This document shows positions 3,622 to 53,593 of a stretch of DNA of 64,000 nt, piece by piece. The notes beneath the pieces are model-generated. The model did no database searches. It was given only the letters and a program-made list of their open reading frames with translations, and was not told where the DNA came from. The first letter of the stretch is position 1; every line of letters begins with the position of its first letter. The position numbers were made by a program, and so were the translations under genes. Source of the stretch: Gelidibacter mesophilus DSM 14095 (GTDB taxonomy: Bacteria; Bacteroidota; Bacteroidia; Flavobacteriales; Flavobacteriaceae); NCBI RefSeq assembly GCF_000423005.1, contig NZ_AUHD01000008.1, positions 1-64,000 on the forward strand, in the 5' to 3' direction.

Positions 3622-4332
3622 CTAAATAAGCTTCATCTCGTTAGGCTCCAAAATACTATCCCCACGCAGTCTCAAGAAGATTTGCGCTACGGCGATGGTA
3701 TCTTTTTCGCAATACACAACGATGCGCTTTAAGTCATTTTCCTCGTAATACACGCGACATACTTCACTACCATCTATATCATCTTTTGGAGAAGGAATGC
3801 CGAGGACAGTAGTCAGTAATTTTAAAGAAGTATAATTTTTATAATCTCCAAATTTCCATAATTCCAAAGTATCCAAATGTGGCACTTCCCAAGGTTTTTT
3901 TCCGAAGAGATTCAGCTTATTAGGCAATTCGATTTTATGAATAATCATACGTCTTGCGATATAAGGAAAATCAAACTCCTTCCCATTGTGGGCGCACAAC
4001 AAATGTTTAGCCTGATTGAAATGGGATTCAATAAGGGCTTTAAAATCATTCAAAATTTTAATTTCATCGCCATAAAAAGACGTCACTCGAAATGTCCTTT
4101 TGGCCTCTTGCAATTTAAAGTAACCAACTGATATACACACAATTTTACCGAACTCCGCCCAAATTCCTGCACGTTCATAAAATTCTTCTGCTGGAATTTC
4201 CGCGCGTTGGTATTTAGACTTGAGTTCCCAAAGCTCTTGTTTTGTTTGATCCAAATCAGAGAAATGACGCGTTTCCGGGACCGTTTCAATGTCCAGAAAT
4301 AAAATGTCTTCAAGGTTGAGTTTACTGATCAT
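3622..4332 (-). CDS. Predicted 3'-5' exonuclease of the PolB-like family
   Basis: A 236-residue protein with an RNase H-like exonuclease fold. The Exo I motif is DIETVPE (about residues 14-20), the Exo II region is LCAHNGKEFDFPYIARR, and the Exo III-like CEKDTIAVAQIFLR lies near the C-terminus. This set matches the stand-alone exonucleases related to the proofreading domain of family B DNA polymerases. The metal-binding acidic residues (DIE, the D of EFD, and the D of CEKD) are present, so it should be active. A dispersed hairpin repeat sits immediately upstream of its start and supplies a GGA sequence 8 bases before the ATG. Confidence 0.85.
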   Translation of the reverse strand: MISKLNLEDILFLDIETVPETRHFSDLDQTKQELWELKSKYQRAEIPAEEFYERAGIWAEFGKIVCISVGYFKLQEAKRTFRVTSFYGDEIKILNDFKALIESHFNQAKHLLCAHNGKEFDFPYIARRMIIHKIELPNKLNLFGKKPWEVPHLDTLELWKFGDYKNYTSLKLLTTVLGIPSPKDDIDGSEVCRVYYEENDLKRIVVYCEKDTIAVAQIFLRLRGDSILEPNEMKLI

Positions 4333-4337
4333 TTTTT

Positions 4338-4361
4338 GTTTCCGCGAAGGTGGGAATCTTA
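4338..4361 (-). repeat. Dispersed start-codon palindrome, copy A
   Basis: On the minus strand, AAGATTCCCACC and TTCGCGGAAAC form an imperfect hairpin that ends 5 bases before the exonuclease ATG. It is a diverged member of the GAGATTCC...GGAAT family also present at 16469, 20604, 26129, 52558 and 53414. The right arm GGA is the only purine-rich sequence at Shine-Dalgarno distance. Confidence 0.6.
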
Positions 4362-15324: not shown

Positions 15325-15429
15325 CACAAGGCTTTTCTTCCTTCGGTGCACAGGTGAAAACCTTAAAGGTTGAGAGATTTAATCTTTTTATGTTGATTCC
15401 ACAACAGTTTCTTCCCTTCGGGAAGGTTA
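15325..15429 (-). repeat. Intercistronic CCGAAGG-type repeats in the haem operon
   Basis: Two related imperfect palindromes lie between hemE and EI24. One is at 15325-15372 (minus: AACCTTTAAGG ... ACCGAAGGAAG ... GCCTTGTGGG). The other, at 15399-15429, overlaps the hemE stop (CCTTCCCGAAGGGAAG). A third copy sits between hemCD and hemE at 16544-16588. Their shared core is CCGAAGG or CCGAAAG followed by GAAAAnCCTTGTG. They are probably mobile intergenic repeats or mRNA-processing hairpins. Confidence 0.5.
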
Positions 15430-16461
15430 GGATGGGATTTTTTCATACTCCTTCACCGCGTCTATAAATGCCTTGGCATTGTCTAAAGGAATATTGGGTA
15501 GAATGCCGTGACCTAAGTTGACGATGTAGTTATCTTTTCCGAATTCATCAATCATCTGCTTCACCATTTTTTTGATTTCTGCAGGTGGTGAGAACAATCT
15601 TGAAGGATCAAAATTACCTTGTAAGGTAATGTTTCCTCCCGTCAAATACCGCGCATTTCTTGGAGAACAGGTCCAATCTACCCCCAAAGCAGAGGCGTTT
15701 GATTTTGCCATATCACCTAATGCAAACCAACATCCTTTTCCAAAGGCAATAACAGGTGCATAATCTTTTAAAGCTTCAATAATCTGATTGATATATTGCC
15801 ATGAAAATTCGTTATAATCGGATGGTGCCAACATGCCACCCCAAGAATCAAAGATTTGAACCGCATCACAGCCTGCAGCAACCTTTGCTTGTAAATATGT
15901 GATGGTGGTATCTGTAATTTTTTGTAGTAATTGATGGGCTGCAAAAGGATTTGTAAAACAAAATTGTTTGGCTTTATCAAAATTCTTGCTGCCTTGACCT
16001 TGCACGCAATAACATAATATAGTCCATGGCGACCCCGCAAAACCAATTAATGGCACCTCATCATTTAACATCTCCTTAGTCATCTTAATAGCTTGCATAA
16101 CATAATCCAATTCCACATGCACATCAGGAACAATCACATTATCAACATCTTTTTGAGTGCGCACAGGATTTGGCAAATAGGGTCCAAAATCAGGTTTCAT
16201 TTCAACCTCAATATTCATGGCCTGTGGAATGACCAAAATATCACTAAATAAAATTGCAGCATCCATTCCGTAACGACGGATAGGTTGAACCGTAATTTCA
16301 CTGGCCAATTCTGGAGTTCTGCAACGGGTAAAGAAATCGTATTTTGCTTTTATTTCTTGAAATTCTGGCAAATAACGTCCAGCTTGACGCATCATCCAAA
16401 CCGGTGGACGCTCTACTGTTTCACCTTTTAATGCTTTTAAGTATAAATCGTTTTTTATCAT
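15427..16461 (-). CDS. hemE: Uroporphyrinogen decarboxylase
   Basis: 344 residues from ATG 16461 ([14 protein letters not shown]). It decarboxylates uroporphyrinogen III to coproporphyrinogen III. The N-terminal signature [15 protein letters not shown] and [16 protein letters not shown] are both present, as is the [13 protein letters not shown] segment. The frame opens three codons earlier, but 16461 is the family start. A dispersed palindrome just upstream places AGGA nine bases before this ATG. It is part of the hemA-hemCD-hemE operon. Confidence 0.97.
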
Positions 16462-16468
16462 ATACAAC

Positions 16469-16490
16469 ATTCCTGCAAATGCGGGAATCC
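16469..16490 (-). repeat. Dispersed start-codon palindrome, copy B (hemE)
   Basis: On the minus strand, GGGATTCCCGC and GCAGGAAT enclose loop ATTT, with one C/A mismatch in the stem. The right arm AGGA lies 9 bases from the hemE ATG (16461), a Shine-Dalgarno distance, so folding would hide the ribosome-binding site. Confidence 0.7.
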
Positions 16491-16543
16491 CTTTTTATAA
16501 ATTAGAATTTTATTTTAAATATTGGTCAACCCAATTATAAACT

Positions 16544-20603: not shown

Positions 20604-20626
20604 GAGATTCCTGTTTTCGCAGGAAT
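20604..20626 (+). repeat. Dispersed start-codon palindrome, copy C (hemH)
   Basis: GAG plus the 7-base arms ATTCCTG and CAGGAAT around loop TTTTCG. The right arm AGGA (20621-20624) lies 7 bases before the hemH ATG at 20632. It is the cleanest copy of the family in this window. Confidence 0.8.
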
Positions 20627-20631
20627 ATACT

Positions 20632-21666
20632 ATGAAAAAAGGAGTTTTACTTGTTAATTTGGGTTCCCCAGACAGCCCAACCCCAGAAGATGTCAAGCCT
20701 TATTTAAGTGAATTTTTAATGGACGAACGGGTTATTGATGTACCGGTTTGGCTAAGAACCTTCATTGTAAAAGGCATTATTTTAAATACACGCCCTAAAG
20801 CATCTGCGGCGGCGTACAAAAAAATATGGTGGGATGAAGGATCACCGCTCATTGTTATTTCTGAGCGTCTTCAGAAAAAAATTCAAAAAAATACAGAACT
20901 CCCGGTTGCTTTAGCCATGCGCTATGGGAGCCTAACTATAAAAAAAGGACTTCAAGAGTTAGTGGATAAAGGTGTGGAGGAAGTTTTCTTGATGCCCTTG
21001 TACCCACAATTTGCAATGGCAACTACTGAGACCATCTTAGTATTGGCGGAAGACATTCGAAAAGAACATTTTCCAAACCTTAAAATATCCGATTTAAAAG
21101 CGTTTTACAATCGTAAGGATTATATTGACGTGCTTTCCAATTCCATCGAAAGACATTTAAAAGATCATCCGTATGATCAATTGTTGTTTTCTTATCATGG
21201 TGTTCCAGAACGACATATCCGCAAACGCGACATTACCAAGTCACATTGTAAAATTGATAAAAGCTGTTGTATAACGCCTTCTCCGGCGCACGAATTTTGC
21301 TACCGTCACCAATGTTTGGAGGTGACCCGCTTGGTGGCTGAAAAACTCAATTTGGAACCAGGAACCTATTCTTCGTCATTCCAGTCACGACTAGGGTTTG
21401 ATCCATGGTTACAGCCGCCTACCGATTTGACTATTGAACGTTTTGGAAAACAAGGCGTGAAAAAAATGGCCGTTGTAACCCCAGCATTCGTAAGTGATTG
21501 TTTAGAAACTTTAGAAGAAATTGCCATGGAAGGCCAAGAGATTTTCCATGAAATGGGCGGAAAAGAATTTACCACTGTGCCTTGCTTAAATGATGACGAC
21601 GAATTTGTAACACTCCTTTCCAATTGGATCAATGATTGGGCAGCCACTGAATCAGTACTGGCATAA
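20632..21666 (+). CDS. hemH: Ferrochelatase
   Basis: 344 residues from ATG 20632 (MKKGVLLVNLGSPDSPTPEDV). It inserts Fe2+ into the porphyrin ring. The start signature, LFSYHGVPERHIRKRD with the metal-binding histidine, and SSFQSRLGFDPWLQPPTD followed by TPAFVSDCLETLEEI with the C-terminal acidic site are all seen. A cysteine group (HCKIDKSCC, FCYRHQC) is typical of Bacteroidota members. The frame is open ten codons further upstream, but those codons are the repeat. The stop overlaps the MATE start by one base. Confidence 0.96.
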   Translation: MKKGVLLVNLGSPDSPTPEDVKPYLSEFLMDERVIDVPVWLRTFIVKGIILNTRPKASAAAYKKIWWDEGSPLIVISERLQKKIQKNTELPVALAMRYGSLTIKKGLQELVDKGVEEVFLMPLYPQFAMATTETILVLAEDIRKEHFPNLKISDLKAFYNRKDYIDVLSNSIERHLKDHPYDQLLFSYHGVPERHIRKRDITKSHCKIDKSCCITPSPAHEFCYRHQCLEVTRLVAEKLNLEPGTYSSSFQSRLGFDPWLQPPTDLTIERFGKQGVKKMAVVTPAFVSDCLETLEEIAMEGQEIFHEMGGKEFTTVPCLNDDDEFVTLLSNWINDWAATESVLA

Positions 21667-25341: not shown

Positions 25342-26124
25342 ATGTCTTACGAAAATATCTTATCAGAATCAAACAACGGTATCACCACAATAACCATTAA
25401 CCGACCTAAAAAATTAAATGCGTTAAACAAAGCGACCATTAATGAGCTTAATCAAGCCTTTAAAATCGCCGATAAAGATAAGCACACCAAAGTGATCATT
25501 ATTACCGGAAGTGGAGAAAAGGCCTTTGTTGCGGGTGCTGACATTAGTGAATTCGCACATTTTGATGTGGAGGATGGCGGAAAATTGGCTGCCAAAGGTC
25601 AGGAATTGCTGTTTGACTATGTTGAAAATCTTTCAACTCCAGTCATTGCTGCGGTCAACGGATTTGCCCTTGGTGGCGGACTTGAATTGGCCATGGCCTG
25701 TCATTTCAGGATTGCAAGCGACACTGCCAAAATGGGCTTGCCAGAAACGTCCTTGGGCGTTATTCCGGGCTATGGAGGAACGCAGCGCTTACCACAATTG
25801 GTCGGGAAAGGTCGCGCCATGGAAATGGTCATGACAGCTGGAATGATTGATGCCGAAACTGCAAAAGCCTATGGCTTGGTCAATCACGTCACTACACAAG
25901 ACGAACTGATGCCTTTATGCGAAAAGATTGCAAGCAAGATCATGCGTAATTCTCCAGTGGCCATTAAAGGCGCCATAAAAGCGATCAACGCCAATTATAA
26001 AGATGGTGTTGATGGTTATAAGGTAGAAATCAAACAATTTGGAAAATGCTTCGGTACCGAAGATTTCACCGAAGGAACAACGGCATTTTTGGAAAAACGT
26101 AAGGCGGAGTTTCCTGGGAAATAA
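25342..26124 (+). CDS. Enoyl-CoA hydratase/isomerase (crotonase superfamily)
   Basis: A 260-residue protein of typical length. The CoA-binding and oxyanion segments are AFVAGADISEF (about 60-72) and NGFALGGGLELAMACHFRIAS (about 107-128). The catalytic glutamates fall in LGGGLELA and LPETSLGVIPGYGGTQRL, as in short-chain enoyl-CoA hydratases. It hydrates 2-enoyl-CoA in beta-oxidation or a related pathway. It is a single gene with its own promoter. The precise substrate is not decidable. Confidence 0.93.
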   Translation: MSYENILSESNNGITTITINRPKKLNALNKATINELNQAFKIADKDKHTKVIIITGSGEKAFVAGADISEFAHFDVEDGGKLAAKGQELLFDYVENLSTPVIAAVNGFALGGGLELAMACHFRIASDTAKMGLPETSLGVIPGYGGTQRLPQLVGKGRAMEMVMTAGMIDAETAKAYGLVNHVTTQDELMPLCEKIASKIMRNSPVAIKGAIKAINANYKDGVDGYKVEIKQFGKCFGTEDFTEGTTAFLEKRKAEFPGK

Positions 26125-26128
26125 ACAA

Positions 26129-26151
26129 ATTCTTGCGCAGGCAGGAATCTC
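26129..26151 (-). repeat. Dispersed palindrome, copy F (not before a start codon)
   Basis: On the minus strand, GAGATTCCTGC ... GCGCAAGAAT lies 5 bases past the crotonase stop. It is the only copy found that is not placed at a translation start. It marks the boundary of the accessory region. Confidence 0.65.
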
Positions 26152-50271: not shown

Positions 50272-51432
50272 CTAACCCCGAAATAGGAAAAAATCTTCCT
50301 TCATATCCTCAATCTGTGCATCTTCATTCGTAATTATGTAGTCGATGGCCTTAGACGTGAATTCATCACCTTTATCCGTAAGTGCTACGATTTTATCATC
50401 AATGAGAATCATGTTGTTTTTAAGCGCCAAATCTAAAACAGTCTTACTTTTTACTTTTTGCCAATTGATATGTTCATTAAGATGGTTGACATGGCGTTCT
50501 TCCTTTTCATTGTGATTTTTGAGATGTAGTAAAAATGTAAGTAAAGAAACTTCAATACGTTGTTGTTTTTCACGGTACATCACGGCAATCAAACCTTTAT
50601 TAGGAGCAAATAAATACACAATTAAAAATACAACCCCCAACATCGTCGTTATAGAACCAGCAATTGAAGCATCGAGCCAATGGGCCACCCAATACCCTGA
50701 TACAGCAGCAAACACACCAAACACAATAGCCAGACCAAGCATTTTCTTCAAATCTGTGGTCAATAAATACGCACAGGCAGCAGGGGCAATCATCAAAGCC
50801 ACTACTAGAATGGCACCTACCGCATCAAAAGCGCCAACGGTGGTAATGGAAGCCATAGTCATTAATCCGTAATGAATAACAACGGGTGAAAAACCTAAAG
50901 ATGCGGATAATCCTGCATCAAAAGTACTCACCTTTAATTCTTTAAAAAAAGCAATTAATAGTCCGACGGTAATCGTTAAAATTGTTCCAATAATCCACAA
51001 TGATTTTGGTCCAATATTTATTCCTGCAACTATAAGTCGGTCAAAAGGAGCAAATGCCAATTCACCCAGCAAAACGGCATCCACATCTAAATGGACATCA
51101 TTTGCATTTTTGGCAATCATGATCACGCCAATACTGAACAGGGCCGGAAACACCAAGCCAATAGCCGTATCTTCTTTTACCAATCCCGTTTTTTGGATAC
51201 GTTCCACCAATATAACAGTAACCACACCGGTGAGCGCCGCCAGTAAAATAAGTAGCGGTGAATTTAGATCTTGGGTTATAAAAAACCCGATCACAAGCCC
51301 AGGCAAGATGGCATGACTGATGGCGTCGCTGATCATGGCCATTTTCCTCAATACCAAAAACGTTCCAGGAATGGCACAAGCAATGGCTACCAAACTGGCA
51401 ATGAGCTGTATTTCAAATTGTGCATTACTCAT
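50272..51432 (-). CDS. Metal ABC transporter permease with C-terminal winged helix
   Basis: 386 residues from ATG 51432 (MSNAQFEIQLIASLVAI). Residues 1-280 are a multi-helix ABC-3 type permease with RKMAMISDAISHAILPGLVIGFF, the Mn/Zn family signature. After KGLIAVMYREKQQRIEVSLLTFLLHL comes an about 100-residue DtxR/winged-helix-like tail (VLDLALKNNMILIDDKIVALTDKGDEF). It overlaps the upstream permease stop by 8 bases. It forms the membrane channel with the other permease. Confidence 0.93.
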   Translation of the reverse strand: MSNAQFEIQLIASLVAIACAIPGTFLVLRKMAMISDAISHAILPGLVIGFFITQDLNSPLLILLAALTGVVTVILVERIQKTGLVKEDTAIGLVFPALFSIGVIMIAKNANDVHLDVDAVLLGELAFAPFDRLIVAGINIGPKSLWIIGTILTITVGLLIAFFKELKVSTFDAGLSASLGFSPVVIHYGLMTMASITTVGAFDAVGAILVVALMIAPAACAYLLTTDLKKMLGLAIVFGVFAAVSGYWVAHWLDASIAGSITTMLGVVFLIVYLFAPNKGLIAVMYREKQQRIEVSLLTFLLHLKNHNEKEERHVNHLNEHINWQKVKSKTVLDLALKNNMILIDDKIVALTDKGDEFTSKAIDYIITNEDAQIEDMKEDFFLFRG

Positions 51433-52552
51433 GTTTCTTGAAGTTTTGGTTGTATAAATTGGCCGCGGTCTCAAAACCTTCTTCTGTTAAACTCCACATA
51501 GCACCATCCAATGTCACATAATTTTTATCCACCAACTTTTGAAGGGTCTTACGTGTAAAACCTTGAAAATTATTTAGGATTTTAATGGTATGTGGATGCG
51601 AAATATCTTCATGGGTCTCCGCAATATGATACATGAAGGAAAGTGTTTTTTGAAACTCCAAATCCCGTCTGTTTTTGATAAATCTGATTTGTCGAAACAA
51701 CAAACCTCTACTGGGCGAAAATATAAAAGAAAAGACCACGAACACAGAGGCCACAATTACAATCACTGGACCGGTAGAAAGATTGTCTTGACTGGCACTG
51801 ATGGCCGTTCCAAAAACTCCAGAAAACGCCCCAAAAATTGCCGCTAAAAAAACCATCGTACCCAAACTATTGGTCCATTGTCGTGCAGCAGCCGCTGGTG
51901 CCAATAACATTGCGCTCATCAGGACCACCCCAACGGTCTGTAACCCTAAAACAATGGCCAAAACGATAAATGTTGTTATCAATACATCAATAAATTTGGT
52001 GTTGAAACCCAATGTTTTGGTGTAGTCAGCATCAAACAGTAAAATCTTGAATTCTTTCCAAAATAACAACATCACTATCAAGCAAATACCAGTAACGATG
52101 GCCATTAACCAGACATCACTTTCAACCAAAGTTGCTGCTTGCCCAAACAAATATTTATCCAATCCTGCTTGATTGGCATTAGGTTGCTTCTGAATAAAGG
52201 TGAGCAACAACATTCCAAATCCGAAAAACAGGGAAAGAATAAGCCCTAAGGCGGTATCTGATTTTAAGTGTGTTTTGGTGATGATGCCTCTAATCCAAAA
52301 AGTACCCACAAGTCCGCTGACCAAAGCGCCAAGAAGTAAAGTGTTGCTGTCTTTTGCTCCAGTAATCAAAAATGCCAAGGCAATTCCTGGTAAGGCGGCG
52401 TGAGAAATCGCATCGCCAAGTAGGCTTTGTTTTCGCAGTACTGCAAAACTACCCAGCATGCCAGTTACTGCTCCCAAGATGGCAGTCCCCAAGGTGATGG
52501 TACGAAGCGTATAATCGCTGAAAACTAAAGAGAAGTATTCTTGTAAGTTCAT
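51425..52552 (-). CDS. Metal ABC transporter permease with C-terminal winged helix
   Basis: A 375-residue protein. The ABC-3 permease part has RKQSLLGDAISHAALPGIALAFL, followed by about eight helices. From about residue 290 a soluble tail includes TLSFMYHIAETHEDISHPHT and GFTRKTLQKLVDKNYVTLDGAMWSLTEEGFETA, a winged-helix pattern like that in the partner permease. Paired permeases with such tails recur in Bacteroidota Mn/Fe transporters. A dispersed palindrome lies immediately upstream. Confidence 0.93.
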   Translation of the reverse strand: MNLQEYFSLVFSDYTLRTITLGTAILGAVTGMLGSFAVLRKQSLLGDAISHAALPGIALAFLITGAKDSNTLLLGALVSGLVGTFWIRGIITKTHLKSDTALGLILSLFFGFGMLLLTFIQKQPNANQAGLDKYLFGQAATLVESDVWLMAIVTGICLIVMLLFWKEFKILLFDADYTKTLGFNTKFIDVLITTFIVLAIVLGLQTVGVVLMSAMLLAPAAAARQWTNSLGTMVFLAAIFGAFSGVFGTAISASQDNLSTGPVIVIVASVFVVFSFIFSPSRGLLFRQIRFIKNRRDLEFQKTLSFMYHIAETHEDISHPHTIKILNNFQGFTRKTLQKLVDKNYVTLDGAMWSLTEEGFETAANLYNQNFKKHE

Positions 52553-52557
52553 AACTC

Positions 52558-52580
52558 ATTCCTGCGCAGGCTGGAATCTC
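52558..52580 (-). repeat. Dispersed start-codon palindrome, copy D (permease)
   Basis: On the minus strand, GAGATTCCAGC and GCAGGAAT enclose CTGC with an A/A mismatch. AGGA lies 7 bases before the permease ATG (52552), the same geometry as the hemH copy. Confidence 0.75.
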
Positions 52581-52686: not shown

Positions 52687-53481
52687 TTATTTTTGCACAC
52701 TCACCTTATAATTAATCCCATAGGTCTTGGTCAAATTATCATCATTAAAAATATCTTTTACCGGGCCGGTAGCAATTTTCTTAACGTTCAAAAAAGTAAC
52801 CCAATCAAAATACTCAGGTACGGTCTGTAAATCATGGTGTACCACAACTACCGTTTTTCCAGCCTTGCGTAATTCCTTTAAAATATTGATAATGGCAATT
52901 TCAGTAGTGGCATCAACCCCTTGAAAAGGCTCATCCATAAAATAGATGGATGCATCCTGCACCAGTGCCCTTGCCAAAAATATACGTTGCTGTTGTCCGC
53001 CAGAAAGTTGACTGATCTGTCGATTTTTGAATGGAAGCATTCCTACTTTTTCCAAAGCTTCCAAAGCTGCTTTCTTTTCTTTAACTCCAGGGCGTTTTAT
53101 CCATCCTAGGCTACCATAAGTTCCCATCATCACTACATCCAATGCAACCGTAGGAAAATCCCAATCTACACTACCCTTTTGAGGCACATAAGCCACGAGC
53201 GAACGCTGTTTATGGTAAGGTTTTCCGTAAATACTGACACTGCCTGCAATAGGTTTAAGAATCCCTAAAATTGCTTTGATCAAGGTGGATTTTCCAGCGC
53301 CATTTGGGCCAACAATAGCCATTAGCACACCTTCAGGAATTTCAAGATCAATATCCCAAAGCACCGGTTTATAGTTGTAGGCGACGGTTAAATCATCAAC
53401 CTTTACTGCCAGGATTCCTGCGCCTGCCTCGTCGACTGACTGGGAGGCAGGAATCTCATTGCTGGGATTAGTGTTTATCAT
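52687..53481 (-). CDS. Metal ABC transporter ATP-binding protein
   Basis: 264 residues from ATG 53481 (53499 is also possible). Walker A is GPNGAGKST, the Q loop YVPQKG, the signature [15 protein letters not shown], Walker [12 protein letters not shown] and the switch VVVHHDL. It powers the two permeases downstream. The N-terminal about 20 residues (NEIPASQSV and DEAGAGILA) are an exact translation of a dispersed DNA palindrome, so the protein either carries a repeat-encoded insert or begins downstream of it at a non-ATG codon. Confidence 0.94.
53414..53457 (-). repeat. Dispersed palindrome, copy E, inside the ATPase reading frame
   Basis: On the minus strand, GAGATTCCTGCCTC ... GAGGCAGG and GCAGGAAT make a longer nested hairpin than the other copies (inner arms CTGCCTC/GAGGCAG). 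Its length keeps the reading frame open from the ATG at 53481 into the ATPase core. Confidence 0.8.
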
Positions 53482-53593
53482 AGTATCTCTTGAGTTCATT
53501 CAAATCTTGAATAATTTTAAATAACGTCACTTTCTAATTTATTTGCGGTACTACTTTCAATATCTATCAGACCTTAATCAATGAGCCGATAGT

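Follow-up and report, generated by a model that had tools for sequence, protein, structure and literature searches.

The palindrome at positions 20604–20626 belongs to a genome-wide family of short hairpins in Gelidibacter mesophilus, many of which abut the edges of transcribed units with a fixed polarity. Copies are strongly biased toward gene starts and stops, the same end of the hairpin faces the gene at both, related species carry copies at the same places, and the corresponding sites are empty in others. Our preferred reading, which we hold with moderate confidence, is that this is a dispersed REP-type hairpin whose start-site copies have turned into 5′-UTR hairpins that most likely tune initiation or mRNA stability through their structure. 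The window analysed here is the whole 64,000-nucleotide stretch (C7:1–64000) of a genome of 4.43 Mb in 55 contigs.

The repeat is a 23-bp hairpin, GAGATTCCTG-N6-CAGGAAT, dispersed across the whole genome. It is composed of an 8-bp stem that opens with AT, a 4-nt loop and a GAG or AAG foot on one side, the other side being tagless. The first two pairs of the stem consensus, ATTCCTGC/GCAGGAAT, are A and T, as in the 8-bp stem of the CGTC-1 REPs discussed below. The listed copies also suit a 23-nt register with the 4-nt loop of that class, a few having longer loops, such as the copy at window position 53414. Genome-wide there are 23 perfect ATTCCTG-N3-14-CAGGAAT palindromes, versus 0 for the reversed control. 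With the GAG foot included and up to three mismatches allowed, the genome holds 65 and 63 matches on the two strands (reversed control, 2 and 3); these are strand matches, and a perfect palindrome scores on both strands. Among 121 Gelidibacter copies (50 from this genome and 71 from a second species, G150), the tail is CTC (foot GAG) in 86 and CTT (AAG) in 21. The nine Gelidibacter genomes examined all contain matches at up to two mismatches, with 7 to 122 strand matches each and 0–2 per strand for the controls. Within the window, the bare octamer GAGATTCC is not significantly enriched (4 seen, 1.62 expected; at least 4 in 7 of 100 shuffles).

The preliminary description listed six copies in the window. 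A related palindrome is present at all six places, but the copies are of unequal quality and only four contain the exact GAGATTCC. Four precede an ATG in the sense orientation, as that description had observed. The copy at 20604–20626 (+ strand) matches all 17 scored bases and ends 5 nt before the ATG at 20632 of hemH, encoding ferrochelatase (20632–21666, +; TIGR00109 and PF00762 above cut-off), whose protein is 93% identical to that of Gelidibacter gilvus and 92% to that of G. pelagius. The copy at 16469–16491 (−) has two mismatches and lies 7 nt before the ATG at 16461 of hemE, encoding uroporphyrinogen decarboxylase (15427–16461, −; TIGR01464 and PF01208 above cut-off). This ATG lines up across the genus, and the end of the copy, GGAATG, creates a further, in-frame upstream ATG. 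The copy at 52558–52580 (−; one mismatch) lies 5 nt before the ATG at 52552 of a metal ABC transporter permease gene (51425–52552, −; PF00950 above cut-off, NCBIfam models below theirs); a hairpin is also found at this start in G149, G151 and G152, and is absent in G155. The fourth, at 4338–4360 (−), lies 5 nt before the ATG at 4332 of a predicted 3′–5′ exonuclease gene (3622–4332, −; PF10108 and PF13482 above cut-off, no match in NCBIfam). Compared by hand, it differs at 6 of the 17 scored bases and retains 5 of 8 stem pairs; because it is so badly decayed it is uncounted in scans at up to five mismatches, and its predicted RNA fold is weak (−2.7 kcal/mol over 71 nt).

The two other window copies stand in different contexts. 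That at 26129–26151 (−; one mismatch) lies 4 nt past the stop codon of an opposite-strand gene of the enoyl-CoA hydratase family (25342–26124, +; PF00378 above cut-off). The copy at 53414–53457 (−), with its enlarged loop, is located within the reading frame of a metal ABC transporter ATP-binding protein (52687–53499, −; PF00005 above cut-off, best NCBIfam match below cut-off), 14 codons past the first ATG of the frame. There it is translated in frame near the N-terminus of the ATPase, as extra residues ahead of the conserved domain.

Placement was scored for the 50 own and 71 G150 copies with up to two mismatches and duplicates removed; the G150 contexts were 40 regions that cover all 43 perfect places and 22 of the 26 one-mismatch places among the matches listed. 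A copy was assigned to a start if its 3′ end was followed within 9 nt by an ATG that opens a frame of 60 codons or more, and to a stop if an opposite-strand frame of 80 codons or more had its stop within 9 nt of that end. Genes were represented by simple frames rather than annotation, tandem copies of one array were each counted singly, and a few likely chance matches were kept (e.g., C10:60241, within a frame). By these measures, 17 of the 50 own copies and 12 of the 71 G150 copies abut starts, while 10 of 50 and 20 of 71 abut opposite-strand stops. The mirror arrangement, in which the 5′ GAG end takes the place of the 3′ end, was seen for none of the 50 own copies and for one of the 71 from G150. 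Random expectations were obtained by placing a 23-mer, both ways round, at every position not covered by a frame of 100 codons or more; for starts and stops they are 2.44% and 2.37% for the own loci plus the window, 2.16% and 2.21% for the window alone, and 1.95% and 2.21% for the G150 loci. The enrichment before start codons over random positions, on which the preliminary description had staked its proposal, is therefore strong (17/50 versus 2.4%). About half of the copies (23/50 own, 39/71 G150) were assigned to neither a start nor a stop by the simple frames.

In a wider set of 268 contexts with up to five mismatches, comprising 79 start, 50 stop and 139 other copies, the spacing peaks at 4–7 nt at starts and at 3–4 nt at stops. 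The tagless 3′ end faces the gene and the foot faces AT-rich intergenic DNA; at stops, there is also a preference for a T just after the element. Although the gene runs one way at starts and the other way at stops, the near-palindrome turns the same end toward it. A fixed distance to a promoter was looked for with TAnnTTTG/C upstream of start copies, and matches were few (13 for 79 copies). The start-site genes, which we take, partly on Pfam matches, to include hemE, hemH, hisS, leuB, argH-like, trpB-like and trpD-like genes, and which also include ABC permeases and others, represent no single pathway. Amino-acid genes (trpD, trpB, leuB, argH-like, hisS) are seemingly frequent among them, and at one locus (L055, own C4:249000–258500) a cluster of several copies surrounds two genes that we take, partly on Pfam matches, for trpD and trpB.

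RNA genes are abutted as well. The tmRNA has a copy ending 3 nt before its 5′ end (L014), and a tRNA-Arg has one ending 4 nt before its own (L059). In G150, only 1 nt separates the end of a copy from the 3′ end of an opposite-strand tRNA-Thr (L220). Because stops, tmRNA and tRNA genes are abutted in addition to starts, the placement bias concerns the edges of transcribed units and not starts alone. The preliminary description had proposed a shared switch that lands at translation starts. Its observation that the repeat recurs a few nucleotides before ATG, same side first, is upheld far above chance, but the specificity for translation starts is not.

Several copies occupy unusual contexts. By eye, copies in L010 and L205 adjoin a terminator-like hairpin. 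In both species a copy lies within a SAM riboswitch aptamer (L064:2419–2441, own C5:295418, and L218 in G150; Rfam matches at 2363–2503 and 1277–1420, respectively), where it presumably lengthens a variable helix. At L273, L262 and L266 in G151 and G152, sites that match own C14:28879, C3:101966 and C2:65698, the repeat carries within its loop a second palindrome, which resembles TCCCGATAGYTATCGGGA. Tandem arrays with periods of ~206, 264 and 290 bp, carrying pieces of neighbouring sequence, were found in G150 contig C24 (L211, L213, L217) and at L361 and L363. A 63-aa GIY-YIG remnant (L069, own C7:140404–140589) has a perfect copy on one side and, on the other, a variant whose stem is re-paired (TACCTGC/GCAGGTA) and which lies 6 nt before an ATG. 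Elsewhere (L067, own C11:73903–74109), an 88-aa GIY-YIG frame is flanked by two copies of one stretch that resembles a partial tRNA gene, by eye as if inserted there. The GIY-YIG nuclease was considered as the mobiliser and dropped, with seven matches in the genome and one of the five scanned loci, the C7:140404 remnant, near a copy.

Comparison with relatives shows that the sites are filled in some genomes and empty in others. The hemE-site copy is present in seven of nine Gelidibacter genomes, with an apparent interrupted remnant in G152, and the hemH-site copy is at the same place in five of nine. The stop-site copy at window 26124/26129 is filled in four and empty in five. We surveyed 21 chosen own sites (13 start, 7 stop and the tmRNA) in four genomes, giving 82 rows. 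The orthologous site held a recognisable hairpin in 27 of the 52 rows for starts, 10 of the 26 for stops and 2 of the 4 for the tmRNA, compared to a shuffled-flank background of ~1%. Some start rows scored as absent hold another hairpin there, namely the trpD-like site in G151 and G155 and, in G151 and G152, nested repeats. Where both genomes of a pair carry the copy, identity of the element versus the left flank is 81% versus 47% at starts and 82% versus 41% at stops, with element identity inflated because presence in both genomes was required. The element fares no better relative to its flank at starts than at stops.

Start-site copies exist beyond the genus, and the strict placement rule is shown only within it. 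Across 149 genomes of the family, the repeat followed by an ATG 3–8 nt away gave 23 matches in 17 genomes, and the opposite orientation gave 15 in 14; outside Gelidibacter, the orientation difference before ATG is not clear (20 versus 14 matches). Twelve of the 20 sense matches outside our own genome open a frame of at least 100 codons, a check made on these sense matches and not on the opposite-orientation ones. For the argH-like gene, 30 loci were taken from among the matches in 60 genomes, and 18 were usable, with an ATG at the expected place. A hairpin of the same kind is located upstream in 5 of these 18 and absent in 13, including G013 of the same genus. The gap is 5 nt in our genome and in G029, 2 nt in the decayed copy of G036, and 16 nt in G034 and G044, where the hairpins bear a GACA tag.

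The hairpin was probably spread by a RAYT-like Y1 transposase, a plausible inference from the following gene content. The candidate mobiliser is a 186-aa Y1 protein (C14:34772–35110; L046:1471–2031) that scores above the cut-off of PF01797 and, at 47.7 bits, below the cut-off of 80 of the NCBIfam REP-transposase model. No repeat was found beside this gene in our genome. Its nearest relatives are in G150 (86%) and G013 (81%), with distant ones (45–53%) in G150, G151, G152 and G153. Two of the distant relatives, in G152 and G153, stand beside repeat arrays, the arrays L361 and L363 adjoining Y1 genes. Repeats are few in G154 and G155, neither of which has a Y1 match, but they also occur in G149, which lacks the Y1 lineage of our genome. 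Target-site duplication gave a weak pooled signal, with z values of 2.0–4.1 that fall within the pooled classes to at most 1.0 at starts, 2.2 at stops and 2.8 elsewhere. There is no excess of long matches, and mean matches lie slightly above shuffles (5.49 versus 5.28, s.d. 0.11; 111 groups). Cases that look like duplications by eye (window 26124, C5:42164 and the argH-like start) are anecdotal.

Stem substitutions in the 268 contexts provide modest evidence for some RNA-level maintenance at starts. Wobble and A.C positions were counted on the element strand over the inner seven pairs, once per site group, the grouping being a rough one by short downstream identity. The ratio of G.U to A.C is 17:5 at starts (p = 0.017), compared to 5:6 at stops and 29:29 for the other sites; the bias is small, and starts differ from the rest at Fisher p = 0.027. 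At starts, 28 of 79 copies, in 10 of 21 groups, have another base in place of the outermost T; the corresponding counts are 2 of 50 at stops and 15 of 139 elsewhere. At the trpD-like site, picked by eye as the best-looking, four of seven pairs changed on both sides over five genomes; at the hisS site, also tested, one pair did. Of the pairwise stem differences at start sites, 40 disrupt the pair, 29 leave it paired through G.U and 14 are compensated. For the hemH leader, RNA folding predicts a different preferred pairing.

These observations are brought together in the preferred reading as follows. Copies, probably spread by a RAYT-like Y1 transposase, would have entered or survived at unit edges through the insertion and survival rules of the element itself, rather than by individual regulatory recruitment. 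Those at starts would become part of the 5′ UTR and tend to stay paired as RNA, although the outermost pair, adjacent to the start, is often lost. In that position the hairpin would most likely tune initiation or mRNA stability through its structure, and would do so without supplying or hiding a Shine–Dalgarno (SD) sequence. This is supported by the genome-wide family, the edge bias relative to its mirror and to random placement, the copies at tmRNA and tRNA ends, the filled and empty sites, the CGTC-1-like form and the tag in other genera, the Y1 gene with its relatives beside arrays, the G.U bias and the trpD-like site. It is weakened by the roughly half of copies that are unplaced, the small size of the G.U bias, the choice of the trpD-like site by eye and the single changed pair at hisS, the 40 broken pairs, the like element-to-flank identities at starts and stops, the hemH fold, the Y1 score below cut-off, the lack of a repeat beside the Y1 gene and the repeats of G149.

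The same placement could also reflect pure insertion preference or survival bias, with an edge-targeting mobile hairpin of one polarity that is functionless and tolerated equally at starts and at stops. We regard this as a real, though lesser, possibility. Polarity is strict at starts and stops despite the opposite gene direction, a pattern that selection could scarcely impose on a near-palindrome; an insertion rule thus seems a likelier source of it than selection. Sites also differ among sister species, and the element is retained similarly at starts and stops. However, the G.U bias and outermost-pair loss at starts only, together with the compensated stem changes at one site (trpD-like), suggest some selection on the RNA, as in the preferred reading.

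The copies might instead be selected RNA-end hairpins, kept at transcript or gene ends to protect or end the RNA, as has been proposed for E. coli REPs. This is unlikely. Position at starts, stops, the tmRNA 5′ end and tRNA ends would fit, as would persistence at orthologous sites, and in E. coli, down-regulation of translation has been reported for REPs near stop codons and mRNA stabilisation for REPs (PMC12306157). A near-palindrome would, however, serve either way round, yet the polarity is strict; stop-site stems show no G.U bias (5:6), and many orthologous sites are empty.

The preliminary description had assigned the right arm of the hairpin the role of supplying the ribosome-binding site and masking it upon folding. 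Bacteroidia ribosomes are reported in general not to use SD pairing, their anti-SD being sequestered, and initiation is reported to depend on upstream adenines and low structure (PMC9976891, PMC6847099). Adding AGGA to a Flavobacterium johnsoniae reporter left its output virtually unchanged in all backgrounds, and F. johnsoniae ribosomes without bS21 respond to strong SD sequences (PMC9976891). Of the 46 frames in the window that start with ATG and reach 150 aa or more, one has GGAG, GAGG or AGGA at −18 to −4, that one being the repeat itself, and control stretches further upstream hold 2 and 2 such cores; the hemH and hemE copies are missing from this count because the first ATG of the frame caller precedes the true start. 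SD supply or masking was set aside because the literature and these counts speak against it, and what survives of the proposed translational role is some sign of RNA-level stem maintenance at starts (G.U bias; trpD-like site). A shared translational switch that both supplies the SD (AGGA/GGA) and hides it in the same stem is very improbable: the arm does lie at an SD-like distance (mostly 4–7 nt) and bS21-lacking ribosomes do respond to a strong SD, but the anti-SD is sequestered, added AGGA is virtually ineffective, SD cores are absent from the other starts of the window, and placement of this kind is also seen at stops and RNA genes.

Since ribosomes of this class generally ignore SD sequences, the effect of a helix ~5 nt upstream of AUG could be tested free of SD pairing, and the filled and empty sites of sister species are natural experiments. 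The REP literature consulted (PMC3733652, PMC12306157) discusses nearness to gene 3′ ends; a REP-like element placed head-first against starts, stops and RNA genes is a sharp, testable case of edge-reading insertion or selection. More speculatively, and with considerable doubt, fixed-polarity delivery to starts, stops and tRNA and tmRNA ends may imply edge-sensing insertion, for instance through single-stranded DNA linked to transcription, with the ready-made start helix ~5 nt upstream of AUG serving SD-blind ribosomes at the place that an SD helix would occupy in other bacteria.

A search of open-licence PMC literature yielded no description that we recognised of this repeat or of start-codon abutment by REPs. 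The nearest known elements are the CGTC-1 REPs (Di Nocera et al. 2013, PMC3733652), which include Neisseria dRS3 and Rickettsia RPE-6 and are reported also from Bacteroidetes. They are defined there by an 8-bp stem with first pairs A and T, a 4-nt loop, a CGTC, TGTC or CCTC tag, and a tail that is mostly CCA. The Gelidibacter repeat shares with them the AT-opening 8-bp stem, the 4-nt loop, stem and loop sub-types, intergenic dispersal and nearness to gene 3′ ends. In contrast, its foot is CTC and not the consensus CCA, and none of the 121 copies has a CGTC/TGTC-type tag; GAC directly after GGAAT, searched as GAC or GAC[AG] and not as CCTC, is absent from all 50 own and all 71 G150 copies. In other genera, GGAATGAC is present in 6 of 20 matches outside our genome. 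The Gelidibacter repeat also stands head-first against start codons, whereas varying distances to downstream ORFs are reported for CGTC-1 REPs (PMC3733652). It is best read, from its sequence, as an untagged CGTC-like REP variant, and was not filed as a member because of the tag (0/121) and the CTC tail.

The TAACTGA repeats of Beggiatoaceae are likewise short, abundant and intergenic, and a post-transcriptional role has been proposed for them, but they are direct heptamer repeats rather than hairpins and come from a different lineage (PMC4679880). The E. coli REP/BIME and RAYT system is similar to the Gelidibacter repeat in its small dispersed hairpins, its genomic Y1 transposase-like gene and its many copies near stop codons (PMC12306157). 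Unlike an E. coli RAYT, the Y1 gene of our genome has no adjacent repeat and scores below the REP-transposase cut-off, and unlike REP/BIME elements, the Gelidibacter repeat has a different sequence and tag and abuts start codons.
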